Shown: positions 4,256-63,870 of the stretch, piece after piece
Layout: the number at the start of each line of letters is the position of its first letter
Numbering within the stretch: the first letter of the stretch is position 1
Assembly: GCA_964023275.1 (NCBI GenBank)
Contig: OZ029913.1
Coordinates: 57,912,358-57,976,357, forward strand
DNA length: 64,000 nt
Direction of reading: 5' to 3'
Source: Norana najaformis
Taxonomy: Eukaryota; Annelida; Clitellata; Crassiclitellata; Hormogastridae
Notes under the pieces: model-generated
What the model was told of the DNA's origin: nothing
The model's database searches: none
What the model saw: only the letters and a program-made list of their open reading frames with translations
Made by a program: the position numbers and the translations under genes

Positions 4256-4585
4256 AGCAATCGTAATCGTAATCTCGAGATTTCTACAGCGCCCAACGAA
4301 AGCTAAGTCACCGGAACCAGCTTATTCACAGGCGCTCAGTCACAACAAAATCGCTAGGCAAAAGGATTCGATTCCAGGTCAAGATTCAGGAGTCAGGCAG
4401 TCAGACAGTCGGACTGCTACGGTGGATGGTGTTTGAAATTGAAGCGAGAAGAGAGATAAGAGGAAGAGGAAGAAACAGGATAAGATTTTTGGAAAAGAAG
4501 TGTTTTCAGTCTTGAGTGAAAGTCTTGCGCAGAAACTGAAAGAGGTGAAGTGTTGGTGAGTTCGTATGATTGACCAGACAAACAG
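4256..4585 (-). mobile_element. LINE family A 3' fragment nested inside the RTE-like LINE
   Basis: The tail CAATCGTAATCGTAATCTCG starts at 4258, and the family-A body follows up to a TGACCAGACAA segment near 4578. Minus translation gives LKTLLFQKSYP, the usual C-terminal end of such ORFs. It splits reverse-transcriptase sequence on both sides, so it inserted later. Confidence 0.7.
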
Positions 4586-4702
4586 GTTGACAATATGACT
4601 ATGGTAAAACTCAAGTCTATCATGGGAGACACAATCAAAAGCCTTCTTAAAATCAACAGAGCACAGATAGAGGGGCTGCAGATGCTCCCTAGTTTTCTGC
4701 AT
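4586..4702 (-). mobile_element. RTE-like LINE reverse transcriptase fragment, motif A
   Basis: Minus translation gives LYLCSVDFKKAFDCVSHDRL, the catalytic-aspartate motif A of RTE-type reverse transcriptases. HIVNL follows, where the family-A element interrupts. It continues in sense with the RQGC block at 4080-4245. Confidence 0.75.
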
Positions 4703-5507
4703 GGTTTATGCAGCTAAATAAAAAACATCCAGTAGCTGAAAACAATACGAAAGAGATTTAGAGTTATTGTAAGAAATATGGATTTATTGCAGGTTATTCT
4801 CTCTAGCGCAGAATGGAACTATAAAGCTGTAGGGCCTAATAGTGTTGGTCTATTGTATCTGGGTCGGATCCAGGATTTGAAGTTGGGGGGGGCGAAGTTT
4901 AGGGTTCAGAAAGCCACGTCCATTCAGCCCATTGCCGGCCTGCGCTGTGCTGCTGGTGGCTACGGGTGGCCGGCTATAGACCCAAAGTGGGTCCAACGAA
5001 TGTAGCTGATAGAGGGCGTGTAATAAAATTGAGTAGCCTATAATGTTAAGGCATACATAAAGAGTCACGATTTGTGACATTTCATAAGTCCACTAAAGTA
5101 GAAAAATTTCACGACTCTTTGTTTGTTTCTACTGGACCTGTTTAGGAATTTACAAGAATTTGAGGAAAGTCTGAACAGACAGCGGCTAGACCATATCTGT
5201 GCCTGGCTGTGATTATGCTGTTAGTAGGTCAGGCCAGAGTTTTGGCTTTAACTTACGAGGCTAGGAACGAGGTCAAGGCTTACGAAAGGTCATGGCACAA
5301 AGCCAAACTGTGATATTCGCATACTGCAAGTCCTTGAAGAGTTTGGGACCTATTTAGCCAATTTCCAACTGATTGGATGAGAGAGGCACTGGCATATCCA
5401 AACCTAAGTAAGTGAGTAAATTTGCAAAGGGGCGATTTTGAAAAGTAAGCAAAGCGGAATATAATTTCCTCCAAAAAAGTTTTTAAAAATTGCTTTAGTC
5501 ACCGTTG
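4703..5507. other. No gene seen
   Basis: Short open frames in several phases with no splice context. A phrase near 5170-5240 (CAGACAGCGGCTAGACCA) recurs at 5960, so part of this is repeat-derived. Confidence 0.3.
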
Positions 5508-6295
5508 GAATTGTAATTGTAACCTCAGATTTATATAGCGCCTCTTAGAGGATAAACTCAACAGAGGGGCTCCCAACCCGAGCAAGTAGAATCACTGTGA
5601 AACAGTACAGTCTTTAGACGCATGCGGAACACTGAGAGGGGAAGAGAGAGAGAGAGAGAGAGGAGCTCAAGTCGCAATTCTCAAGGCAGACGATTCCAGC
5701 ACGATTTGGGACCACCGCAGGGAAAGCCTTTGGACTGGGCCGCAGCTGTTCCCATGCGAGGGACAAACAAGAGAGCCTAAGTGGCCCAGCGGAGGGTGCT
5801 ACTGCCCGACAACGAGAAGACCAAAGTGCAGAAGTCAACGAGGGAAAGAGGAGCAGAACCAGCAACACAATTGCGCATAAGAGTGAGGATCTTAAAAAGG
5901 ACACGCTGCTGGATGGGGAACCAGTGAAGAGTGTCACGAATATAATTGAAGAATGTCTAAACAGACAGCGGCTAGACCACATCTGTGCCTTGGCTATAAT
6001 TATGCTGTTAGTAGGTCAGGTCAGAGTCAGGTTATGCGATGTGGCCATATCTGGGAATGCCCCACTGAGACGAGCAGCAGAGTTCAGCACAGATTGAAGC
6101 TTAGCAATGTTGGCTAGCGATAGGCCGGTAAGGATGGCGTTACGTACCAAAGTAAACCCTGGTGCAAATGAGGGCATGGACCTGAGTGGAGACAGCGTAG
6201 AAGGAAAGAGTATGAAGAATAGAGCGGAGCTGACGAAGATGGTAAAAACAAGAACGAGAGACCCTGGTAAGCTCCTGATCCAGTACAACAATTGC
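5508..6295 (-). mobile_element. LINE family C (L2/CR1-like), 3' half of ORF2 to tail
   Basis: The tail lies at about 5508-5525. Minus translation gives IAKLQSVLNSAARLSGAF near 6080 and RFPRE/CWN-type blocks toward 5700, the standard C-terminal region of L2/CR1 ORF2. It is the downstream part of the reverse transcriptase at 6625-7370, separated by an inserted family-A piece. Frameshifts show it is inactive. Confidence 0.7.
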
Positions 6296-6622
6296 GACAG
6301 TTGTCTGGTCAATCATACGAACTCACCAACACTTCACCTCTTTCGGTTTCTGCGCAGGTCTTTCACTCAAGACTGAAAACACTTCTTTTCCAGAAATCTT
6401 ATCCTGATTCTTCCTCTTCCCCTCATCTCTCTTCTCGCTTCAATTTCAAACAGCATCCACCGTAGCCGTCCGACTGTCTGAGTGCCTGACTCCTGGATCT
6501 TGAGCCTTTTGCCTATCGATTTTGTTTTGACTGAGCGCCTGTGAATAAGCTGGTTCCCGCGACTTAGCTTTTGTTGAGCGCTGTAGAAATCTCGAGATTA
6601 CGATTACGATTACGATCCCGAA
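6296..6622 (+). mobile_element. LINE family A 3' fragment inserted in family C LINE
   Basis: Opens with TTGTCTGGTCAATCATACG and contains TCACTCAAGACTGAAAACAC. It ends with GAAATCTCGAGATTACGATT and a (TTACGA)n tail at about 6597-6617. It lies opposite to the family-C element it interrupts. Confidence 0.75.
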
Positions 6623-7370
6623 CCGTAGTACAGAAGGAGTTATCCGGAAATCTCTGGCGTAAGGAGGAGAGATCGATCTTGGCAAGCTGCAAGCGGCCAC
6701 CAAGCCAGATGAACTGGGTCTTGTTACAGTTCAAACAGAGGCGATTGTAGGACATCCAGAGGTCAAGGACAGAGGTGGCGTCGAGAATCCTCCATAGAAG
6801 AGGGCAATCTCCACCGGACCATGGGCATAAGCCTGGGTGTCGTCTGCATATTGTAGGACGGCAACACTCAGAGGAAGGAGGGTCTGAGCTAGATCAGAGG
6901 TATATAAAATATAGAAGAGAGGAGCCAGGACGGAACTCTGGGGAGACCAAAAAAGACGGGGAACCAGAAGGACCGCGAGGGTCTAAAGACGACAGATTGA
7001 AGGCGGTCTGAGAGGAATGACCGAAGCCAGCGGAGGGCAGAACCAGTGATGCCAAAGGAAATCTCCAAACGCTCCAATAGGATGAATTGATCAACGGTAT
7101 CGAAAGCAGCACTAACATCGTAAAGGGTCAGAAGGGTGACCTGCCTGCAAACAGTAGCCCCAACTACGTCAGCAAGAAGGCGAGTCATAAATGATTCGGT
7201 CGAATGATGTTTCCTGAACCCAGAGTGAAGTGGAAGCATAAGAGAGTTAATGTTGAGGTAGTGAGATAGCTGACAAGAGACACATCTTTCAAGGAACTTG
7301 GAGAGAAATGACAACCTAGAAATAGGACAGTAATTAGAGGCGGCACTAGGGTCACCAGCTGTCATTTTCT
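6623..7370 (-). mobile_element. LINE family C (L2/CR1-like) reverse transcriptase domain
   Basis: Minus translation carries the reverse-transcriptase series in order: DPSAASNYCPISRLSFLSKF near 7330, SGFRKHHSTESF, LYDVSAAFDTVDQFILLERL (motif A), FGITGSALRWLRSFLSDR, then in a shifted frame VAVLQYADDTQAYAHG near 6840 (motif C, YADD present) and LNCNKTQFIWLGG near 6720. At least one frameshift follows motif A. The pattern fits the CR1/L2 group of non-LTR retrotransposons. The 3' part resumes at 6295. Confidence 0.85.
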
Positions 7371-8537: not shown

Positions 8538-8541
8538 CATG

Positions 8542-8615
8542 TGGCCCGTATGGGGATCGAACCCACGACCTTCGCGTTATTAGCACGACGCTCTAACCAA
8601 CTGAGCTAACGGGCC
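8542..8615 (-). tRNA. tRNA-Ile (anticodon AAT)
   Basis: The minus strand folds into a full cloverleaf. The acceptor stem is GGCCCGT paired with ACGGGCC, the D stem GCTC/GAGC, and the anticodon stem TCGTG/CGCGA with loop CTAATAA, giving anticodon AAT. The T arm is GTGGG TTCGATC CCCAT, with discriminator A. There is no intron and CCA is not encoded. A and B box sequences are intact. TTTTT lies five bases past the 3' end (plus 8533-8537), suitable as a Pol III terminator. It is a real gene rather than a SINE head, since the stems are undamaged. Confidence 0.96.
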
Positions 8616-42000: not shown

Positions 42001-45000
42001 TATATATGTTATGTATATATATATACAAAATATAGACTTTGTTTTGCCATCATTAGGCAGCACATGTATAATATAAAGTGGGACACGGTAGTGTATTGGT
42101 ATGGTTGGTGCCTCGTAACCAGAGGGTCGCGGATTCGAATCTGCCTCAAACCACTGCATAGCGATCTTGGGCAAGTTGCTCACCCACAGTGGTCTGTGAG
42201 GAAGGCAACGGGAAACGACCTCACTCATCTCATCCCCAGGTGGCATAAAGCAAATGGACCTGCATCTGGGCAGAGAACTCATCATTATCGTGTAATATAT
42301 AGTGTATAATATATACTGTATATGTATATTACACACAGACATAAACACGTGTGTATTTATGTATGTGTGTTTGTATGTATGTATGTATGTGTGAATGTAT
42401 GTATGTATATGAAAGTCTGTTAATGAATATTAAAGGATAATTTTTTAGTGATGTACCTGTTACCTTTTAGGGTGGTAGACAACTCGCTTCGGGTGATTTC
42501 AGTTCTATGCAGGTAAGTGATGAACTCTTGCATTAATAACTGAATTCCTTTGATCAGCTTAGACAAGATCCAGTCATTTTTAAGGCTTGTCTCGCAGTTT
42601 AAGAGCATACGACTGAGCCATTCCTGTGATGACATAGATGATGGAGTGTATGATAGCCTAGTGGTTAGTGTGCTGGACTCAACCAGGAGATTGGGGATTC
42701 AACCTCTCCAAAGAGGCAGAAAAATGTTTCGATATTTATGCCCCACTCGCAGCTGTAGTCAACGTGGCTATGAATTGACCATACACTGGTAGTGAGAAGA
42801 TCAGCTGGTGAGAGGACTGACCCTCCACACTGAAATTTTAGGACTAGTAAATGAAGTTACTAAGTTGCTAGCGCTTTGTACTGGGGAGATTGCTAACACT
42901 TCGTACTTGTGGCTGTCTCTCAGAGTGAAATGCATGGTAGTCGATCGGGTAGAGCGCTCGGCTTGTAACGCAGAGAATGCAGGTTTGAACCTCCCCTGAA
43001 ACGGTTACTATTTCTAGAGACCTTGAGCAAGTCCTTCACTCGCATTTGATCAGCACTATCGACTGATGCTTGTTAGACAGTGGTGCTTAATAAATGCAGA
43101 AATAATAAAGAGCTAGCTTAAGGGAATGTGATGGTTTCTGTATAGGGAATTAGAGCAACTCCTTAACATGCTATTGTTTGCATTATAATCAGTTAAGAAC
43201 TTGCTGTTAGATAGTGGTGTGCAAGTGTAAGAAATAATAATGCTTATTTAGAAAAGATCTATGATAACTACAATAAGGAGGCAACAGAGAAAATGGATTG
43301 GTCACTTACTGAATGGGTACTCACTCTTGCGAACTGTCATTGAGGACAGAATGGAGGTGAGGGAGACAAGAGGAAGACCCAGACAGATGCTGCTGGATTG
43401 GATGATGATGGATGGATACAACAGGCTGAAAGAAGAAGCTCAGCACTGAGAGGACCTTTGAACTTGCCTGAGGGCAGAGCGCCAGAAGAAGAAGAAGATT
43501 TAGAAAATATTAAGGGTCTTCTTAGCAGTCCATTTCATCATTATAGGCACTGCATTTTTATACAGAACATTCTTCAGAAAATGTGTTTCTTGTGATTCTG
43601 GTTTTTTGAGAGGTGCTCAATGATTCTGCAACTCGAAGGATTTTGGAGCGATTTAAAAAGTGGGCATGAGCTTGGAATACTGCACTTTAATGTGCTTCTT
43701 CTATATTTCTTGAATGACGAGATGTCAACCATGTTTAGTTACTAGAAAAATAGAAAAATCCTGCAATTGCTAATAGCTGCGGCTGATTTATTACAAATGA
43801 TCCCATCATTATATTTGAACTTCTATTTTCTACTGTATTATATGGTTGATTTCTTTAACCGATTACTACTGTTCTTTATTTTACATTTTTATACATTTTA
43901 CATTTTCATATGAGGTACTCACTGTCAAGTTTGGGAATTTTTCTTGCATTAATAAACATGACTATCTGCACTACAGATTCACATTTCTCTGTGACTTTGT
44001 GTGTGTTATAAATTTTCATTGTAATAATGATAGCATTAATTACAATAGCAACAATTGCAAGAATATTATTATTTGTTTTTTTTTAAATTCAGTCCTACTC
44101 TGATATAAAGGATCTGCTGAGAAATGTTGATGACTTGGAAATAACAAATGAGCTGCTGAAACAACGGCTCGTGAGTTTCTGTTAAGATTTTTGACAGATG
44201 TAAAATAGCTTTATAACACTGGTCAACATAGAAATCGTTACTGACTGGAAAAGGCCCTAATGTGTAGCATCTTGGTGTGCTGAACACGAATATAACCATA
44301 AAAATTTTTTATTGGCTCTCGTTTTGAAAATATTTCATGTAGTTCATTTTTTATGTTTCACCATGTAAATTTATGCAGTAGGACTGCGACAATATCCTAA
44401 ATAAGTCTAGAATGATGTAATATTCCACCTCATTGCATAATCCCATCATGGACACATCATGCACAGTTGATTACGTCATTTTCTGATGCAATGTAAAACT
44501 ACAGCCAGTCGGCTGCTGACGTAAGATGACGTCAGCAGTGTACTATATAAAGCGAGTCGGAACGGTTGAGGATTTACAATATTATAGACTTTGTGCGAGA
44601 CAGTTTAAGTTACTGTTTTATAAAACTATTATTACTTTATCCATTTAGATACGATACAGAACAGTAATGCCTCGGACGTGCGTAAATACTGTGGACAACT
44701 TTTGTTACATTTGTGGGGAAGTGACATTTGCCAACCAGAAGAAAAGTATCACTTATCAAGTCAAGAAGGCATATCATGCTTACTTCGAATGCAAGGTTGG
44801 TGACCAAGACAAGCCATGGGCCCCGCATATATGCTGTGCTACATGTACAACACAGCTTTCACAGTGGTTGAATGGCAAAAGACCATCAATGCCGTTTGCA
44901 GTTCCCATGGTGTGGAGAGAGCAAAGCAACCACGTAGATGACTGTTACTTCTGCTTGGTTCCTCCTCTTTCCGGTGGAATAACGAAGCAAAAGAAGTCGA

Positions 45001-48000
45001 CAATAGTCTACCCAAACATTCCGTCAGCATTGAGACCAGTTCCACATGGTGATGGACTTCCTATTCCAGAACCTCCAGCAGAATATATTTTCCTTGATTC
45101 ATCTGATGAGGACAAGGGTGAGCCGACATGTTCTTTTCCTGGTCCGTCAGTGTGCAGTGATCCCGATTTTCACTGTGGTGCATCATCAACCCCACACAGA
45201 ATAACACAGGAAGAACTAAATGACCTTGTTCGTGATTTGGACTTATCCAAAAACAAGGCAGAATTGCTAGGATCAAGACTCCAACAATGGAATCTTCTAG
45301 AAGAAGATGTCACAATTACTTCATATAGAAAGCGCCATCAGCAGTTGGAACCTTTCTTTATGAAGGAAGGTAATCTGGTATTCTGTTCCAATATTGACGA
45401 CCTCATGAATGCCTTACAGATCACTCATGACCCACAAGAATGGAGACTCTTTGTAGACTCTTCAACACTGAGTCTTAAGGCTGTGCTTTTGCACAATGGA
45501 AACCGTCTTCCATCTATTCCATTAGCGCATGCTGTCCACATGAAAGAGACATACGATAACCTAAAACAGCTACTGCATTCCATTGACTATAACAGGTACA
45601 AATGGCACCTGTGTGGTGATTTGAAGGTAGTTGCCATTTTAATGGGACTGCAGCAAGGATATACAAAATATGTGTTTCTTGTGTGAGTGGGATAGCCGAG
45701 CAAGAGAGTTGCACTACGTGCGGAAGGAATGGACTCCCAGACAAAACATGGCAGTTGGACAGAAGAATATCCAGCACCCAGCTCTGGTCGAGGCTCACAA
45801 AATCCTACTACCACCCCTTCACATCAAACTAGGTTTGGTGAAGAACTTCGTGAAAGCCATGGACCGCACTTCGCCAGCTTTCCGATACCTGCATGAAAAA
45901 TTCCCTCGACTCAGCGAAGCAAAGATTAAAGAGGGAGTTTTTGTGGGTCCTCAGATTAGAGAACTCTTCAAAGATGACCGCTTCAACAACTTGCTGGAGG
46001 GTGATGTGAAACAAGCATGGAATGCTTTTCGTCTAGTGTCTACAGACTTTCTGGGGAATGTTAGGGCAGAAAACTACAAGGAACTAGTAGAAGACATGCT
46101 CAAGCAGTACCAGAAATTTCGCTGCAATATGTCTCTGAAGATGCATTTCCTTCATTCCCATCTGGATTTCTTCCCTGACAACTGTGGTATGGTTAGTGAC
46201 GAACATGGCGAACGTTTTCATCAAGATATCGCAACAATGGAGCAAAGGTACCAGGGAAAATGGTCCACTACAATGTTGGCTGACTACTGCTGGACACTCC
46301 GCAGAGATGCTCCCAAACAGCTGTACAAGAGACAGGCAAAAAAATCTAAGAACTAGTCTATGACCTGGTTTTTACAAATATTAACTGTAAGTGTATCACT
46401 ATTGGCATGCATTGTGTTAAGATTTTTGACAGATGTAAAATAGCTTTATAATTAATTAATTGCTGTAAATCTACAGGTAAATTACCCTGAGCAAATTGTT
46501 TGGCCCCTATGTGCTTGTCACCAGTCAGTATTATGGGTTACTGGTGTGAGCTAGGAAGTGAATGGTGAGTTATGTGATGTGTCTGCATGACGTTGGGATT
46601 TATTTGTTTCCGGTTCAAGGCTATTCAGCTCATTGTGTCCCACTATGGGATGTTAGAGACTTTTGATTGCATTAAGATTTTTTGTTGAGATATTGTCAGC
46701 CTATTAAGCAGCACAATGTTAGTGTTTACAATTGATAGAGAATGTTTTTTGTTCTTCCCCTTGTTAACCAAACCCTTTTGCCTATCGATTTTGTTTTGAC
46801 TGAGCGCCTGTGAATAAGCTGGTCCCCGCGGCGCGGCTTTCGTTGGGCGCTGTAGAAATCTCGGAATTACGATTACGAATTACGATTGTTGCTCCTATTC
46901 CGGACATCATCCACTGTAGCCGTCTGACTGCCTGACTGCCTCTTAGATCTTGATCTAGAACCGTTTCTAACCCTCCTGCCTAGCGATTTTGTTTTGACTG
47001 AGCACATTTGAATAAGCTTGTTCCTGTGACTTAGCCTTCGTTGGGCGCTTTAGAAATCTTGATTTTACGATTGTGTTTGCGATAAGGTTTTGAATTTAAT
47101 ATAAATCCAGTGACTTAAAAACAACCATTTTTATTGATTGATGTGATCCTTAGACACTACTGATTGATTAATGAATTGGTTGGTGACCAAGTGATGAAGT
47201 GATTGATAAGTAACAGATGGATTAATTGGTTGTAGAAAGCTGTTTCTCCTAAAGACTACGAGGAAGTGATGGCAAGCCGAGCACACGACAGTCAACCGCC
47301 CGCTCGTGCATCAATTCAAAAACGGCTCCAGGAAGCAGCTGAGAAAGTGGTTGGCAAACACCTAGAAACACATTCAGTTCTTATTTCTTTTCTGGCACAA
47401 TGAGCTATCTCCTGTAGCTACTTAAGATTAGAACAGAAGGGTCCGTTTGACTTTACACAATCTAATCTGGAAACTTCTTTAGAACCGTTATTGTAATGCA
47501 CAATGACTCAGTCAGTGGTCACGTCTAAACTGCAAAGCTGCATTCCAAAACTGCATTCCAAAACTGCATTCCAAAACTGCATTCCAAAACTGCATTCCAA
47601 AACTACAAAACTGCATTCCAAAACCACAAACTGCTTTCCAAAACTGCATCCCAAAACTACAAAACTGCATTCCAAAACCACAAACTGCTTCCCAAAACTG
47701 CATTCCAAAACCACAAAACTTGTTTAAAAACCACAAAACTGCATTCCAGAACCACAGGACTGCATTTCAAGACTGCAGAACTGCATTCCAAAACTGAAAA
47801 ACTGCATTCCAAAACCACGAAACTGCATTTCAAGACTGCAAAACTGCATTTCAAAACTGAAAAACTGCATTCCAAAACAACATTGCACTGGATAGAACCA
47901 GTTGAGATCCCTGAGGCTACTGAGACCTGCTGGAGTTGTCAAGAGGAAGGCCATTCACTGCGATCTAGAGATACTGGTATTGTGTCATATGATGAAAACG

Positions 48001-57256: not shown

Positions 57257-60200
57257 TTAAGTTTTTGTTGCAAGAGGAGGAAGTGAGTGGTCGGGCGTCC
57301 CCCGCATATTTAGAATTGTCTTCTTCAGCTCACAGACTTCGTTTCGGAGTTGTAGGATCTCCTGCTTCTGTAGGTTGACTACTTTCTTTGTCTCCGACAG
57401 TTCGCGAGCCAGCTGGGCATTCTTTGTGCCGTCAGAGAGTTTCTGAATGACCTCGGCTGTGCTCATGTTGTTGTTCTTACGATGCATTCCGAGTGCACTT
57501 TCAAGTCCGAGCGCATTAATGCGGCATCCCTTGAGCTCACGCCTCAATTCACTGATCTCACGTATCAACAACACATTCTCCTACAGGCAAACCATCTCTG
57601 ATATAATCACTGTCGACATCTTGTCTGTATCATGTATGTATGTGTGTCTGTGTGTATGCATGTTGTTTGATCATGAAAGTTACGCACTATATTGTAAAGT
57701 AAACATGGCCCATGTAAAGTATTTGATGTTATAGGGACTACCTTGTTTAGGGGTTCAAATGACCCTTTAGGTTTGTCCCACTTATGTCTCAACAGTAACG
57801 TGAGTTTTTCCCATAAAATCTCCTGCAACTATCTCAATAAACGATTGATTCATTGATTGATTGATGTACAATGTATTGGTATATGCATATATATATATAT
57901 ACAGGCATAAAACATTTGTTGTCAGTCAGTGTCAGGATCATTTATTGTCAGTTACTGCCATGAGCATCTGGCATTAGTGCCAGGGTCACTTGTTGTGTGC
58001 CAGAATCATTTGCCACTAGGGTCAGTAAAACATGTTGGTTGGTGTTTACCTGCATAACACGGAGGTGATCGTGTTTCTGTGTCTCGGAATCTTTGCCCAG
58101 CTGCTTGCGTAATGTTGTGACGGTCGCTTCAAGGTGCTCCCTCTGGCGGCCAAGCTCACAGACAACATCGGCATCAAGTTCCGCCGCTTGGATCTATGAA
58201 ACCAAACAACCCAATGATATGTAAATGCGTCAGGAGCCCAGGTTCGCATCCCGGTCGTGGCTTATTTCAGAGATTTAAATATTGGGCTAGTATGGTCCGT
58301 GCACGGGGACCTTAAATGGCGTGGTGCCCATTCAAACGGGCAGTGGTGGTGAAGGATCTCACCCGATAAATTCATTGCTAAATGAGCAGGGTCGAGGCCA
58401 TACGGTCGCTATATAAAACCTATACATTAGATTAAAATATTAAAACGGCAGATGGAAATGAGTTCCCACATAATTATGACATGGCAAAGGAAATTGAAAT
58501 GCTTTTTATGTGGCCACTGTAATGTAATGTAATCCACTGCCATATTTCTTTGGTAAATTGTGAAATTGACAATTTCTCTCAGTTGTGCAAACTGTTACGA
58601 AAGGCATTTCATCCGATTGGATTCGTTTTTCCTTCTACTGAAAGATCTCTTCAATCCCGGATATAATGTAACTTAAAATAAATCTCTTGTTTCTCAGCAC
58701 CACAAAAAAGTTGTCAGGGAGACCAGCTTATACACTGGTGCTATATCAAATCAAGTCTGCAACAGCCGGGTGTTGTTAGTTTTGGTGCCAGGTCAAAGTC
58801 CAGGTTGTCAAGCTTTGGGGACAGCGTGTTGCTAAAGTGGAAGGCGATTATGAAGGCAGTGGTGGTCACAGGATACTTCGTGCAGAAGCAGGACAAGATG
58901 ATATCGTTGTGGACTTCAATGAAATGCTGTGTAAATGTCTGCATACACCAGACCCTCCTCGTAATGCATTTCATTATGGCACAAATTCTCATGTAACAAG
59001 GTTCGAACATGGATCTCAAATCGAACTCGGCTTTAGAAAGCGACCCCATAAAGCAACTCGTTATATAAGGCAGTGCCTGATATGGCTCTCAAAGGAAGTG
59101 TTATAAGAAGGCTCCAGCATACATAATCTAATCTAATCTAAAGAATTCTGTATTGCCGTCATCACAATGCCCAAGACATCAGTCGATGGTTGCCTTATGC
59201 ATCCTAAAGTGTGATATATTACCAGACAATCATTGGTGCTACTCACAATGTCTTTTTCTGTGACATGCTTTCTATGCATGGCAATAATATCTTCCTTGAG
59301 CAGTTTTGGCTCTTGGATGAGTCCTGCGCAGTGGTGAATGTCATTCTTTATACGCTGTATCACAACGTCTCGATCACGAATCTAGAAAAGATGTAAGCTA
59401 GAAGTAAGGTAAAGAAAGGTAATCCTCCTTTCATTACAGGCCACTTCCAGCAAAACTTGCTATTAAGACACACACATACACATATACATACAAACAATCA
59501 TGACCATGCATTAACGATCCAGTAATGAATAACTATAGTAACAGTATAACAATAATAACAGTATAATAATAGTAACAGTACAACAACAGTAACAGCATAA
59601 CAATAGTAATAATATAACAATAGTAAAAGCATAACAACAGTTACAATTGATAACAGCATTACAGCAAACAAAAGTGCCATAATCATAATAAGAACAGGAA
59701 GAGGAAGAAGAGCATGCCCTCAAGCTAACCCTCAAGGAGCAGCCATGGGTATGAAGCGTTAGCGACTTCATTTTCTTAGCCCTGACATAAAAATGCAGGT
59801 AGCCATTTGTCTCTCTCACCATCAGATCTTCTCACCAACACTACAGTTGATGTACTCATCTTAGCCCTGACATATAAATGCAGGTAGCCATTTGTCTCTC
59901 TCACCATCAGATCTTCTCACCAACACTACAGTTGATGTACTCATCTTAGCCCTGACATATAAATGCAGGTACCCATTTGTCTCTCTCACCATCAGATCTT
60001 CTCACCAACACTACAGTTGATGTACTCATCTTAGCCCTGACATATAAATGCAGGTACCCATTTGTCTCTCTCACCATCAGATCTTCTCACCAACACTACA
60101 GTTGATGTACTCATCTTAGCCCTGACATATAAATGCAGGTACCCATTTGTCTCTCTCACCATCAGATCTTCTCACCAACACTACAGTTGATGTACTCATC

Positions 60201-63200
60201 TTAGCCCTGACATATAAATGCAGGTACCCATTTGTCTCTCTCACCATCAGATCTTCTCACCAACACTACAGTTGATGTACTCATCTTAGCCCTGACATAT
60301 AAATGCAGGTACCCATTTGTCTCTCTCACCATCAGATCTTCTCACCAACACTACAGTTGATGTACTCATCTTAGCCCTGACATATAAATGCAGGTAGCCA
60401 TTTGTCTCTCTCACCATCAGATCTTCTCACCAACACTGTACAATTGATCTACTCATTTTACGGCTCAGGCTGCTATGGGGTGCTACTGAACAGAAATCTT
60501 GAAATGTCTTTCTGTCCTGTGGTGTAAATGCGCAGCCTGAGGTTTGACAGTCTAGAACACTAACCACTAGACAATTGCACACCCACCACCAACAAGATTT
60601 GCATTGAAAATGCAACTCTAGTGGTAATCTATTAGTGTCTCGCACTCGCACCTCGACCATGCAGCGTCGTGCTTTCTCTGTTGCTGGCCCAACCCTCTGG
60701 AATGGACTTCCTGTTACTCTACGTCTTCTGCCCCGGGATTTTACTTCTATCTTCTATTCTTCTCTTAAGACTGTTCTCTTTCGCCGAGGTTGGTTTGGGA
60801 GTGCTTCTGAGTAGTTTTCTTGAAGGGGCGCTATATAAGTGTTCTGTATAAATAAAAATAAAAAATAAATAAATAAACTCCCAATGTTTCAGTTGTAGAC
60901 ATGTTGTAATGTTGTACACATATTGTTCAAGTGACAGGAACCATGATCAGTACTGAGGCAGACAAGAAGGAAAGAGGGGAAGAAATTGGACAAGGGAATT
61001 AGGTAACATCAGTTCCCCTCTAACCTTTCGACGCTCTCGATACAACTCGTTTTCGGCCGCTCTCAGCTTCTCCCCCTCCTGCGCAATTCGCTGCTCAAGG
61101 ATTACGTTCTGCGTATGAAATCGACCAAGTTCACCTTCCATCTGAAAAGCAAAAATTTCTTATCCTCGTCTGTACAACAACAACAAACAACAACAAACAA
61201 CAACAAAATCATTCTCATCTGTACAACAAGAATGACTTGAGCTCCTCTATGAATGATGGTACTATTAATACTATTACAAGTAATTACCCTATTATGATGA
61301 CGATTATTATTATTATTATTACTACTATTATGATGACGATTATTATTATTATTATTACTACTACTACTATTACTATTATTATTATTACTACTACTACTAT
61401 TATTATTACTATTATTATTATTACTATTACTACTATTATTATTATTATTATTCCTGCTCCATTATCTGTTGACAAAGCCTCAGTCGATGGCACTGAGCAA
61501 TTGTGCGTGAAGGACTTGCTCAAGGTCCCTAGAGAGTAACCATCACCACAGATAATGATATTAATTTTAAGCCACATGTTAGATTTGTGTTGGTAATGTG
61601 ACTGCCTGTTTAGCTTATATAAATAATTAAATAAAATAATAAATAATTAATTGTTTAGCTTATATAAACACGTTGTGCTGTGAGAAGTTTCACATATTGC
61701 CGACTAAATTGATTTCGTCATTATTTTGTCAACCTGGAAACTGCTTTTATTGATTGTCACTACTGTTATACTATTACTATTGTTATACTGTTATTATTGC
61801 TATTCGTTATTGGTACAATTTCCTTTTATTATGATTGTGGTTACTGAGGAGTTTTTATGGAGGGATGTCAACAGATGTGTTAAAAACTGCCTTTACTCAT
61901 GTGACGTGGTAGCCAATTGATTTGAATGCCCATCTTGCAGCGTGGAGTCTGTGGATTCAATGCAATACAATACAATATATATGTTGCAATACAGTGCAAT
62001 AAAATGCAATGTAATACAAGACTTGTCTGAACCTCTAGAATCTGTTGTTTCACGCGTTTCAGTTCTTCCTCCCGTGGTTCAATTTGTTTCTTCAGTTCTT
62101 TGATCTTGTAGTCCAACACAAACTTGAACTTCTCTAGTTCCTGATTCTTCTTCTTCAGCTCATAGATTCTCTTTTCCTGTCGAAACAGGAAACAATGTAT
62201 ACACTCGCCTAAAATATATTACAGTAATTAATAAGAAAAAATTCATCATCGTGTTCGTAATCTCGAGATTTCTACAGCGCCCAGTGAAAGCTAAGTCGCA
62301 GGAACCAGCTTATTCACAGGCACTTCAGCAAGCAAATGATGCTCAAAAACCTGGAAAAGTCACCAATGGTGGGCTCCTGCACACACAAAGACCACAATCA
62401 AAGGATTCCAATCTAGATACATGCATACATAAATACACGAGAACCAACAAGAATGTGGTCTGTAAAGCAAGTTATTTGCACAGAATTGCTGGTGTGGCAC
62501 AAATCCTAAGGTCCTGGACAGAATTTTGAGGTAAACAGCAAGTCCAGTGTGTCCTGGATCTTTGGATTTTTGTCTTGCCAGCTCAGAATCCTAAGAAAAG
62601 AAGACAAGCATCTTTTAACTGGCTCAGCACTTAGAAAAAATTAACTTCTGACCTCAAATAATAAGCAGAATGAAATGGAAGAAGAAGTGGTAGAAGAGGG
62701 AGAAGAGAAAGAACAAGAAGAAGTAGGAGAAGAGGGAGAACAAGAAGTTGGAGGAGGAGGAGAAGAAGCAGAAGAAGCAGAAGAAGGACGAGGAGGAGAA
62801 GAAGCAGCAGAAGAACAAGTGGGAGAAAAAGGAGATGAAGGAGAAGAAGTGGGAGGAGGAGGAGAAGAAGCAGAAGGAGGAGGAGAAGAAGCAGAAGGAC
62901 GAGGAGGAGAAGAAGCAGCAGAAGAACAAGTGGGAGTAAAAGAAGATGGAGGAGGAGAAGAAGGATAAGAAGAAGAAGAAGAAGAAGAGTCCATTAGGCT
63001 AACCCAGATATATCCCATGGGTATTAAAATTTTGTATCTGCATTCTTTTAGCTTCCATGCAAATTATTAAATATTAAATTATTAAATGTTTGATAATCAC
63101 TTTGTCCTGTATTGTGTCGTCTCTTTCTTGAATTTCTTTCTTCAGTAAATGTATATCCTTATCAAGGTTTTTTATGACATTATTCAATTTTCCCGCCTCG

Positions 63201-63433
63201 ATCTGTGACTTTCGTATCTCCTCTTTCCGATCTTCCATGTCTTTCTGTAGAATGGAAAACTTTTTCCGGAACAGCGTCATTTCTGCCTTCACCTTTTGCG
63301 TCGTTTCTCTTTCATCACGAAGCTGATTTTCATATCTGATCTTCACGTTCATGATCTCCCTATCAACATCCTCCTCAATCTGGCGCTGGGTTTCCTCACA
63401 CTCACGCTGGGCCTTCTTGAACTGACTATGTGC
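57257..63433 (-). CDS. CFAP57: CFAP57 (WDR65), C-terminal coiled-coil exons
   Basis: Six coding exons on the minus strand: 63433-63101, 62176-62033, 61141-61025, 59381-59247, 58193-58050, 57580-57257 (stop at 57257). Every junction is phase 0, for 398 residues. The upstream exons with the WD40 propeller lie beyond position 64000. The order of blocks follows human CFAP57 exon by exon: [18 protein letters not shown] and [34 protein letters not shown] and [72 protein letters not shown]. It is almost entirely alpha-helical coiled coil. CFAP57 is an axonemal protein tied to inner dynein arms and the MIA or ruler-type complexes in motile cilia; a ciliary role here follows from family knowledge. It converges on the coiled-coil gene ending at 52930. 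Confidence 0.95.
58220..58435 (+). repeat. SINE family D, best-preserved copy
   Basis: GTCAGGAGCCCAGGTTCGCA, TCGTGGCTTATTTCAGAGAT, GCACGGGGACCTTAAATGGC, GGTGGTGAAGGATCTCACCC, CGGTCGCTATATAAAACCTA. In a CFAP57 intron. Confidence 0.7.
59110..59200 (+). repeat. SINE family G fragment
   Basis: TAATCTAATCTAATCTAAAG, TTCTGTATTGCCGTCATCAC, CAAGACATCAGTCGATGG. Confidence 0.55.
59510..59690. repeat. AACAGTATAACAATAGTA-type simple repeat
   Basis: Low-complexity array of AACARTAATAACAGTATA phrases in a CFAP57 intron. Confidence 0.85.
59776..60455. repeat. 85-bp minisatellite, 8 copies
   Basis: Units start at 59776 and every 85 bases to 60371 (TTAGCCCTGACATATAAATG, then CAGGTAGCCATTTGTCTCTC). Units 1, 2 and 8 read GGTAGCC; units 3-7 read GGTACCC. 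A diverged single unit lies at 63935-64000. In the CFAP57 intron between exons 61141-61025 and 59381-59247. Confidence 0.95.
60640..60880 (+). mobile_element. L2-like LINE ORF2 3' terminus
   Basis: Plus frames give [17 protein letters not shown], then LKTVLFRR and the ending TGAAGGGGCGCTATATAAGT with an (ATAAATAA)n tail at 60850-60880. It is a typical L2/CR1 3' end. Confidence 0.65.
61260..61555 (-). repeat. (ATT/ACT)n tract joined to SINE family E
   Basis: 61285-61452 is a trinucleotide array of ATT and ACT. It runs straight into GACAAAGCCTCAGTCGATGG and GGACTTGCTCAAGGTCCC of SINE E, so it is an expanded SINE tail. The tRNA-like head is missing. Confidence 0.75.
62240..62335 (-). mobile_element. 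LINE 3' end, family A, short
   Basis: GTTCGTAATCTCGAGATTTC, TACAGCGCCCAGTGAAAGCT, CCAGCTTATTCACAGGCACT. Confidence 0.65.
62668..62990. repeat. GAAGAAG / GGAGGA purine tract
   Basis: About 320 bases of almost pure purine on the plus strand in a CFAP57 intron, so pyrimidine in the sense of transcription. Poly-Glu or poly-Ser/Phe open frames here are artefacts. Confidence 0.9.
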
Positions 63434-63870
63434 CTGCACAGTCAAAACCAAAACTGCAGACAACCACTTGAGTATTTCATGCCTGCACAGTCAAAACCAA
63501 AACTGCATTTAATCGTGGATCACACACCTGAACAGTCATAACCAAAACCATATTTAACTTCTTGGGTATTTTTTCTGCACAGTAAAAGCAAACCATATAT
63601 AATTGCTTAGGTAATTCGTGCCTGCATGGGCAAAACCAAAACAGTTTTTTAACCATGAATAACATACATGCACAGTACTAGTTCTGCAGTTTAACGACAG
63701 CTTATGGCATCAAAGGCCATTGCCGTCGCCCTCCTCCTTTATCCAGTCTTGGGACTGGCACTACCCCCAAACAAGGCAGTGGCAGAGTTATACCTGCACA
63801 GTCAATACTAAAAGCATATTTAACCATTTAGGTATCTTGCGTCTGCACAGTCAAAGAATAAGATGAAGAA
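63434..63870. repeat. Degenerate ~50-60-bp array containing splice-acceptor-like units
   Basis: Repeats of CCTGCACAGTCAAAACCAAA followed by a CATATTTAACCA-like spacer, at about 63434, 63482, 63529, 63576, 63621, 63668, 63793 and 63846. In the minus (gene) sense each begins TTTTGACTGTGCAGG, like the acceptor of the CFAP57 exon at 63433. Confidence 0.8.
63698..63790 (+). repeat. Dispersed repeat, family H
   Basis: AGCTTATGGCATCAAAGGCC, CTTGGGACTGGCACTACCCC, GGCAGTGGCAGAG; inserted within the CCTGCACAGTC array. Confidence 0.65.

Follow-up and report, generated by a model that had tools for sequence, protein, structure and literature searches.

The question raised by this locus is how a direct repeat of 37 bp came to stand on either side of a transposase-like gene in the annelid Norana najaformis. 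The DNA analysed is a stretch of 64,000 nucleotides (assembly GCA_964023275.1, contig OZ029913.1, positions 57,912,358 to 57,976,357 of the forward strand), referred to below as the window. The sequence TGTTAAGATTTTTGACAGATGTAAAATAGCTTTATAA occupies positions 44180-44216 and again 46415-46451. The two copies are identical at 37/37 bases, as the original prediction had stated, and no third site was found elsewhere in the 64-kb window on either strand with up to 12 mismatches allowed. An exact, dispersed pair of 37-mers in 64 kb is far more than chance gives, and the arrangement is indeed unusual. Between the two sequences lies a copy, truncated at its 3' end, of a young inverted-repeat DNA transposon; normal insertions of this family duplicate 3 bp of target. 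On balance, we lean towards seeing the repeat as the scar of a one-ended strand transfer, followed by copying of flank from the still-empty target and by microhomology-mediated end-joining.

The insert is a truncated copy of an inverted-repeat DNA transposon

The insert starts with CACTGGTCAACA directly after the left 37-mer and extends over 44217-46416 on the forward strand. It keeps 2198 bp of the transposon (44217-46414) and a TG shared with the flank, while the last 151 bp of the 2.35-kb element are missing. Complete copies in the host genome (one assembly of 608 Mb in 17 contigs was searched) measure approximately 2351-2353 bp, start with CACTGGTCAACA and end with the inverted complement of CACTGGACAACA. 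Their inverted-repeat termini read CACTGG[T/A]CAACA, and such terminal inverted repeats (CACTGGTCAACA and CACTGGACAACA) are a mark of cut-and-paste transposons. The window copy retains the 5' terminal inverted repeat (CACTGGTCAACATAGAAATCG, 44217-44237, forward strand) and a 5' subterminal inverted repeat of about 50 bp (44276-44325, forward strand), which matches a partner near the 3' end of complete copies at 80%; the 3' partners of both are lost here. The remark in the original prediction that inverted repeats are not evident is therefore right for the window copy and wrong for the element, since complete copies have them and the 3' repeat was lost by truncation.

A pattern search allowing up to 3 mismatches located 950 5' ends and 933 3' ends of the element in the genome, and reversed control patterns gave 0. 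About 40 near-identical relatives of the window insert were present among the best candidates scored genome-wide. Identity to the window copy is 98.9-99.5% in the 29 other best-matching copies, and for that reason the burst of the family is, judged by sequence identity, recent. This identity supports the youth of the insertion better than the perfect 37-mer does: the original prediction was right that the insertion is young, and its argument from perfect identity is weak by itself, as 0/37 differences allow approximately 7.8% divergence at 95%.

The same copies settle whether the 37 bp belongs to the element. As the pair exactly brackets the gene, the original prediction had offered terminal direct repeats as one explanation. 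The left flank differs from that of the window copy in 29/29 other best copies, none of which has the 37-mer; CACTGG starts just inside the left 37-mer, and in all 29 the element runs on past window position 46416. Beyond that position, 27 of 28 others have about 150 bp more in common with the second-ranked copy (L002), and the remaining one (L018) has 84 bp. These flanks refute the terminal direct repeat, which we regard as vanishingly improbable. Dispersed, near-identical copies with different flanks are again what a cut-and-paste transposon leaves.

A second, divergent relative lies at 1-1737 on the reverse strand, where it is cut by the window edge. It is frame-broken, shares 47% amino acid identity with the insert and has the same CACTGGYCAACA 5' end at 1737, its 5' side starting CACTGGCCAACA at that position. 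The 5' ends of the two elements are alike beyond chance (2/10000 shuffles reach the likeness), whereas the alignment of their flanks is within chance (205/1000 shuffles). Because the element ends match while the flanks do not, the left 37-mer lies outside the element. In this relative an alanine replaces the candidate catalytic aspartate (FIASS versus FVDSS; the catalytic role is putative). A weak 3' inverted repeat of the window copy's own, CAATGCATGCC, was rejected: it failed a shuffle test (2579/10000 against its own 5' end, 1331/10000 against that of the second copy) and is also contradicted by the complete copies.

The gene between the repeats is real, as predicted, and is frame-broken. 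The first part of the presumed transposase gene (44667-45686, forward strand) encodes 339 amino acids with a cysteine-rich N-terminus and ends early by a frameshift; the second part (45670-46356, forward strand) continues in another frame for 228 amino acids. An uninterrupted frame of 563-565 amino acids is present in 5 of the first 30 copies. At the frameshift site, a TA/TG run at about 45655-45690, two frame-breaking length variants account for 9 and 11 of the 26 readable copies (20/26), and most of the best-matching copies seem, from their reading frames, to be frame-broken copies moved in trans. The 562-amino-acid read-through protein matched 0 Pfam families at E values up to 10, the gene product had no sequence match in PDB, and no relatives of the protein were found in viral contigs, genome contigs, phages, plasmids, Pfam or PDB sequences. 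Neither the Pfam nor the PDB search thus recognised in it the DDE/D transposase with RNase H fold expected of a cut-and-paste transposon. RuBisCO_activase_AAA_helical (Pfam, E 0.058, under the cut-off) was dismissed as a chance match. An AlphaFold model of the presumed transposase had a mean predicted local distance difference test score (pLDDT) of 37.3, too poor for fold searches.

Two-ended insertions mostly carry a 3-bp target duplication

We examined 61 distinct copies, of which 41 count as two-ended and 17 as truncated. Three belong to neither set: L017 has a variant 3' end and lacks a 3-bp match, L040 is deleted internally and has a 3-bp duplication, and L062, which is two-ended, was added later. 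L042 duplicates L027, and a neighbouring partial copy that borders L005 was left out. L001-L030 stand in order of their similarity to the window copy (L001), and L031-L040 are the remaining matches of the same genome search. L042-L061 are the first 20 exact 5' ends among the matches listed on one contig (C1) and are the only sample whose selection did not depend on the condition of the 3' end. All 5' and 3' end places listed were without mismatch. The two-ended set includes four copies without 1 nt of the 3' end (L005, L007, L043, L046).

A flush target duplication was found in 26/41 two-ended copies; 25 of these are of 3 bp, and L004 has 6 bp in a TTA run. A further 11/41 (10 of 3 bp, and L005 with 6 bp) show a match only when shifted by 1-3 nt, a setting in which chance may supply one, and 4/41 have no target duplication. 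None of the 41 exceeds 6 bp. The short duplication of fixed length is the third feature expected of a cut-and-paste transposon. Among the flush duplications TTA (14/26) and TAA (4/26) together make up 18/26, with A before in 20/26 and T after in 23/26. In L022, L045, L048, L050 and L052, the 3' inverted repeat is separated from the 3-bp match by 1-3 extra bases (for example A, AA, TA), as if 3'-end cleavage had been sloppy in several two-ended copies.

The right-hand repeat is a copy of an empty target

Against this norm, the left junction of the window copy is canonical: A-TAA is followed directly by CACTGG. By sequence comparison, the left 37-bp copy (44180-44216, forward strand) is the target's own left flank as it was before insertion; its last three bases, 44214-44216, are the TAA of a canonical A-TAA-T target. 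The base after TAA in the uninterrupted right-hand copy is T, matching the preferred target context of flush two-ended copies. At the right junction, the shortened transposon end passes into the TG at 46415-46416 (forward strand), which is common to the transposon and the left flank and forms a 2-bp microhomology at the join. The duplicated left flank follows (46417-46451, forward strand; 35 bp, or 37 with the shared TG); it ends in TAA and runs straight on into the right flank, which starts at 46452. Because the flank at the broken end passes unbroken through the insertion point, the right-hand 37-mer is a copy of an empty target site, with its start 35-37 bp upstream of the insertion point.

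Flank duplications recur in truncated copies

The truncated set comprises 10 copies from L001-L040 (L001, L011, L018, L026, L031, L035, L036, L037, L038, L039), six from the contig-ordered sample (L049, L051, L055, L056, L058, L059) and L063. An abutting duplication of the flank on the intact-end side, 6-64 bp in length, was found in 12/17 (11/16 besides the window copy), and each has its own sequence. In 3'-truncated copies it measures 35 bp (L001), 21 bp (L018), 15 bp (L056) and 10 bp (L058), and, with 2 mismatches each, 64 bp (L049) and 48 bp (L055). The 5' truncations show the same design in mirror image, with 6 bp (L011), 12 bp (L035), 6 bp (L036), 19 bp (L037), 13 bp (L038) and 40 bp (L063); those other than L063 come from the ranked, non-random set. 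The median of the 12 is 17 bp. A duplication of at least 10 bp occurs in 10/17 truncated copies versus 0/41 two-ended copies (Fisher 3.7e-7).

The association was tested on two copies with one end absent from the listed matches: L062, the first 5' end of this kind following the contig-ordered 20, and L063, the first 3' end of this kind. L063 has a 387-bp 5' truncation and an exact 40-bp duplication, whereas L062 is two-ended with a variant 3' end and was uninformative. In the contig-ordered sample 6/20 copies are 3'-truncated, and the scar is present in 4/20 (95% interval 6-44%). The original prediction had proposed comparing the flanks of other copies, expecting either a different long repeat at each or the same 37 bp at all. 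The comparison gave a third outcome, in which two-ended copies mostly have 3 bp and most of the truncated copies examined have their own, different, longer duplications.

The joins themselves are marked by microhomology. Over 14 joins (the 12 abutting cases with L026 and L031) it amounts to 27 bp in all, where random joins average 10.3, and 5/20000 simulations reach the observed value; an earlier test on 9 joins gave 9/20000. The L037 join has no microhomology. Truncated copies of the contig-ordered sample lack 50, 50, 65, 207, 287 and 1818 bp, so that 4/6 truncations lose at most 207 bp and fall in the terminal 8.8% of the element (P 0.0008 under a uniform distribution of breakpoints). Because breakpoints cluster close to the missing end, they are better suited to end-nibbling than to an interrupted copy tract.

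A one-ended insertion model and its alternatives

In the one-ended strand transfer that we favour, the intact transposon end would be joined to one target strand, and the other end, unprotected, would lose bases and never complete strand transfer. Synthesis would then proceed from the free target 3' end on the far side, with the unbroken opposite strand as template, and copy the target triplet and tens of bases of flank a second time; microhomology-mediated end-joining would attach this new flank end to the nibbled transposon end. Whatever the model, it has to account for one canonical end, one shortened end and an intact-side flank copied through an uninterrupted target. As the copied flank passes through uninterrupted target, the template at the broken end was target without the element; in this model it would be the other strand of the target, which the joining of a single transposon end leaves whole. 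The order of these steps is inferred from a single assembly. Among the explanations offered by the original prediction, a recent microhomology event comes closest to this model.

Several observations weigh against one-ended strand transfer. Three of the 17 truncated copies (L039, L051, L059) have no flank duplication above shuffled controls, the search for L051 and L059 covering 300 bp of left flank. In L031 the duplication measures 28 bp and a gap of 7 nt separates its left copy from the element, and L026 duplicates the 3-bp target only. The duplications of 6 and 10 bp (L011, L036, L058) are not long enough to rise above a local-alignment shuffle (tested for L058) and were counted only since they are flush at both edges. 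L049 is also internally deleted, which fits gap repair at least as well. Finally, catalysis by the encoded protein is presumed, its structure model having the low mean pLDDT given above.

The duplications may instead have arisen after insertion, if a resident full-length copy was cut at one end and gap repair failed: the element end would be nibbled, 6-64 bp of flank would be copied from an empty homologous or sister chromosome, and microhomology would seal the join. An empty allele is the sole requirement, the same product is expected in both orientations (one-ended strand transfer, too, predicts this product and its mirror image), and the internal deletion plus end truncation of L049 leans this way. 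In addition, the available text of PMC8277862 describes template switching at microhomologies during transposon gap-filling. The 12 abutting duplications are short, which leans towards one-ended strand transfer; synthesis tracts from a homologous template are often long, in contrast to the range and median observed here. We consider later cleavage of a resident copy rather unlikely. Simple gap repair from an element-bearing sister chromatid is insufficient, as it would leave a 3-bp duplication only. Unequal exchange, in which a chromosome with the element and one without it break at unrelated places and are joined through microhomology, would likewise yield a hybrid junction with a short microhomology, as might an assembly error. 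Unequal exchange should produce deletions about as often, whereas duplications were found in 13/17 truncated copies including L031 (deletions are not scorable without empty sites), and an assembly error should hardly come back in 13 copies, each time with another sequence. Either origin is quite improbable.

The remaining alternatives treat the repeat as a target duplication. An unusually wide staggered cut by the transposase could give a true 37-bp duplication: the accessible part of PMC10132070 reports long duplications of 16-28 bp in the IS1202 group of bacterial DDE elements, and that of PMC5488345 rare retroviral insertions with long duplications. The two-ended copies contradict a long duplication as the rule of this family, with their maximum of 6 bp, and duplications of at least 10 bp are seen only together with truncation, in varied lengths and with microhomology. 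A wide cut is highly unlikely, and the long repeat is not the target duplication of the family. A retro-copy made by a long interspersed nuclear element (LINE) would be an RNA-templated insertion with a long target duplication, and such retro-DNAs have, according to the available portion of PMC11195612, longer duplications and no inverted repeats. In the window copy the DNA terminus CACTGG is preserved exactly and sits at a canonical A-TAA-T target; the element starts 450 bp before the start codon and ahead of TATA-like sequences. Neither AATAAA nor ATTAAA occurs in 46301-46800 and there is no poly(A) at the break, in agreement with the original prediction; truncations occur at either the 5' or the 3' end. 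In the window copy, neither a poly(A) tail nor ends at transcript boundaries were found, and a LINE-made origin is very improbable.

Genomic context in the window

Upstream of the insertion, sequence and reading frames indicate a probable host exon at 44093-44170 on the forward strand, an open coiled-coil-like frame that ends at a GTGAGT donor-like site. This site lies 46 bp upstream of the insertion, and it is plausible on these grounds that the transposon sits inside a presumed intron. A dispersed repeat of 85-105 bp resembling a short interspersed nuclear element occurs on both strands (at 2767, 4259, 6505, 11250, 46774, 46972 and others), with two copies 198 bp apart just to the right of the insertion.

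Farther away, coiled-coil exon-like frames lie at 57257-63490 on the reverse strand, which we take to resemble a cilia/flagella-associated protein, CFAP57-like. A tandem array with a period of 85 bp, 99% alike in its middle, occupies 59689-60583. Reverse-transcriptase-like fragments are found at 4379-7368 on the reverse strand (DFKKAFDCVSHDRL at 4379-4705 and DVSAAFDTVDQFIL at 6889-7368), presumably of a non-long-terminal-repeat reverse transcriptase. A transfer RNA gene, tRNA-Ile (AAT), lies at 8541-8615 on the reverse strand.

Comparison with known transposons

PIF/Harbinger elements make a 3-bp TWA target duplication, and the TTA or TAA of 18/26 flush copies agrees with this. They differ from the family described here in that no Harbinger-type domain was found by Pfam, the terminus is CACTGG and no second, Myb-like gene was seen, the insert having one gene in two frames. 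CACTA/En-Spm (CMC) elements share with it termini starting CACT, subterminal repeats and, as given in the available text of PMC8978399, a 3-bp target duplication. The complete copies read have CACTGG in place of the CACTA core, Transposase_21 (PF02992) was not among the Pfam results (0 families at E values up to 10), and the 2.35-kb element holds a single short gene. Animal relatives of CACTA are described, in the accessible part of PMC1636069, with CCC termini, a 2-bp duplication and a Transposase_21 domain. As the CACTA core and the Transposase_21 domain were looked for and not found, we claim membership in neither CACTA nor PIF/Harbinger. Long-duplication DDE elements of the IS1202 kind differ in having the long duplication at two-ended insertions, where the maximum here is 6 bp in 41.

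Parts of the signature have precedents. Single-ended transposition of piggyBac, in which only one transposon end takes part, was observed in plasmid assays in cells, with the other end left in the donor (PMC3952818, available text), and HERV-K insertions have host duplications of 111 and 250 bp, far longer than normal (PMC5488345, available text). HERV-K elements are retroviral, and the accessible parts of these two sources report no recurrent combination of truncation and flank duplication in a natural cut-and-paste family. In gap-filling Pack-TIRs, template switching copies DNA into the transposon locus with a median microhomology of 2 bp (PMC8277862, available text). There, as far as that text goes, foreign DNA is captured inside the transposon, whereas the family in the window loses one end and copies its own flank. 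In the literature searched, whose coverage leaves out most subscription journals and includes several sources in part, no report of the truncation and flank-duplication signature or of this transposase family was found.

Implications

Long direct repeats around DNA-transposon copies are easily taken for odd target duplications. In this family they look like a diagnostic scar linking the loss of a transposon end to the copying of an empty target, and annotators should be warned that a long direct repeat may mark a truncated copy and not an unknown class of mobile element. With several hundred copies in one genome, the examined ones about 99% alike, the origin of terminal truncation, at insertion or in later repair, and the rules of end-joining can be studied on events that form a natural population. 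It is possible, though we hold this only tentatively, that the transposase family regularly uses a second, one-ended integration route for about one fifth of its insertions, with the uncut target strand as the template. Strand-displacement synthesis, primed by the target's own 3' end, would copy 6-64 bp of flank before the join is made through microhomology. If true, this route would be the DNA-transposon counterpart of target-primed synthesis, leaving truncated copies with long, variable flank duplications.

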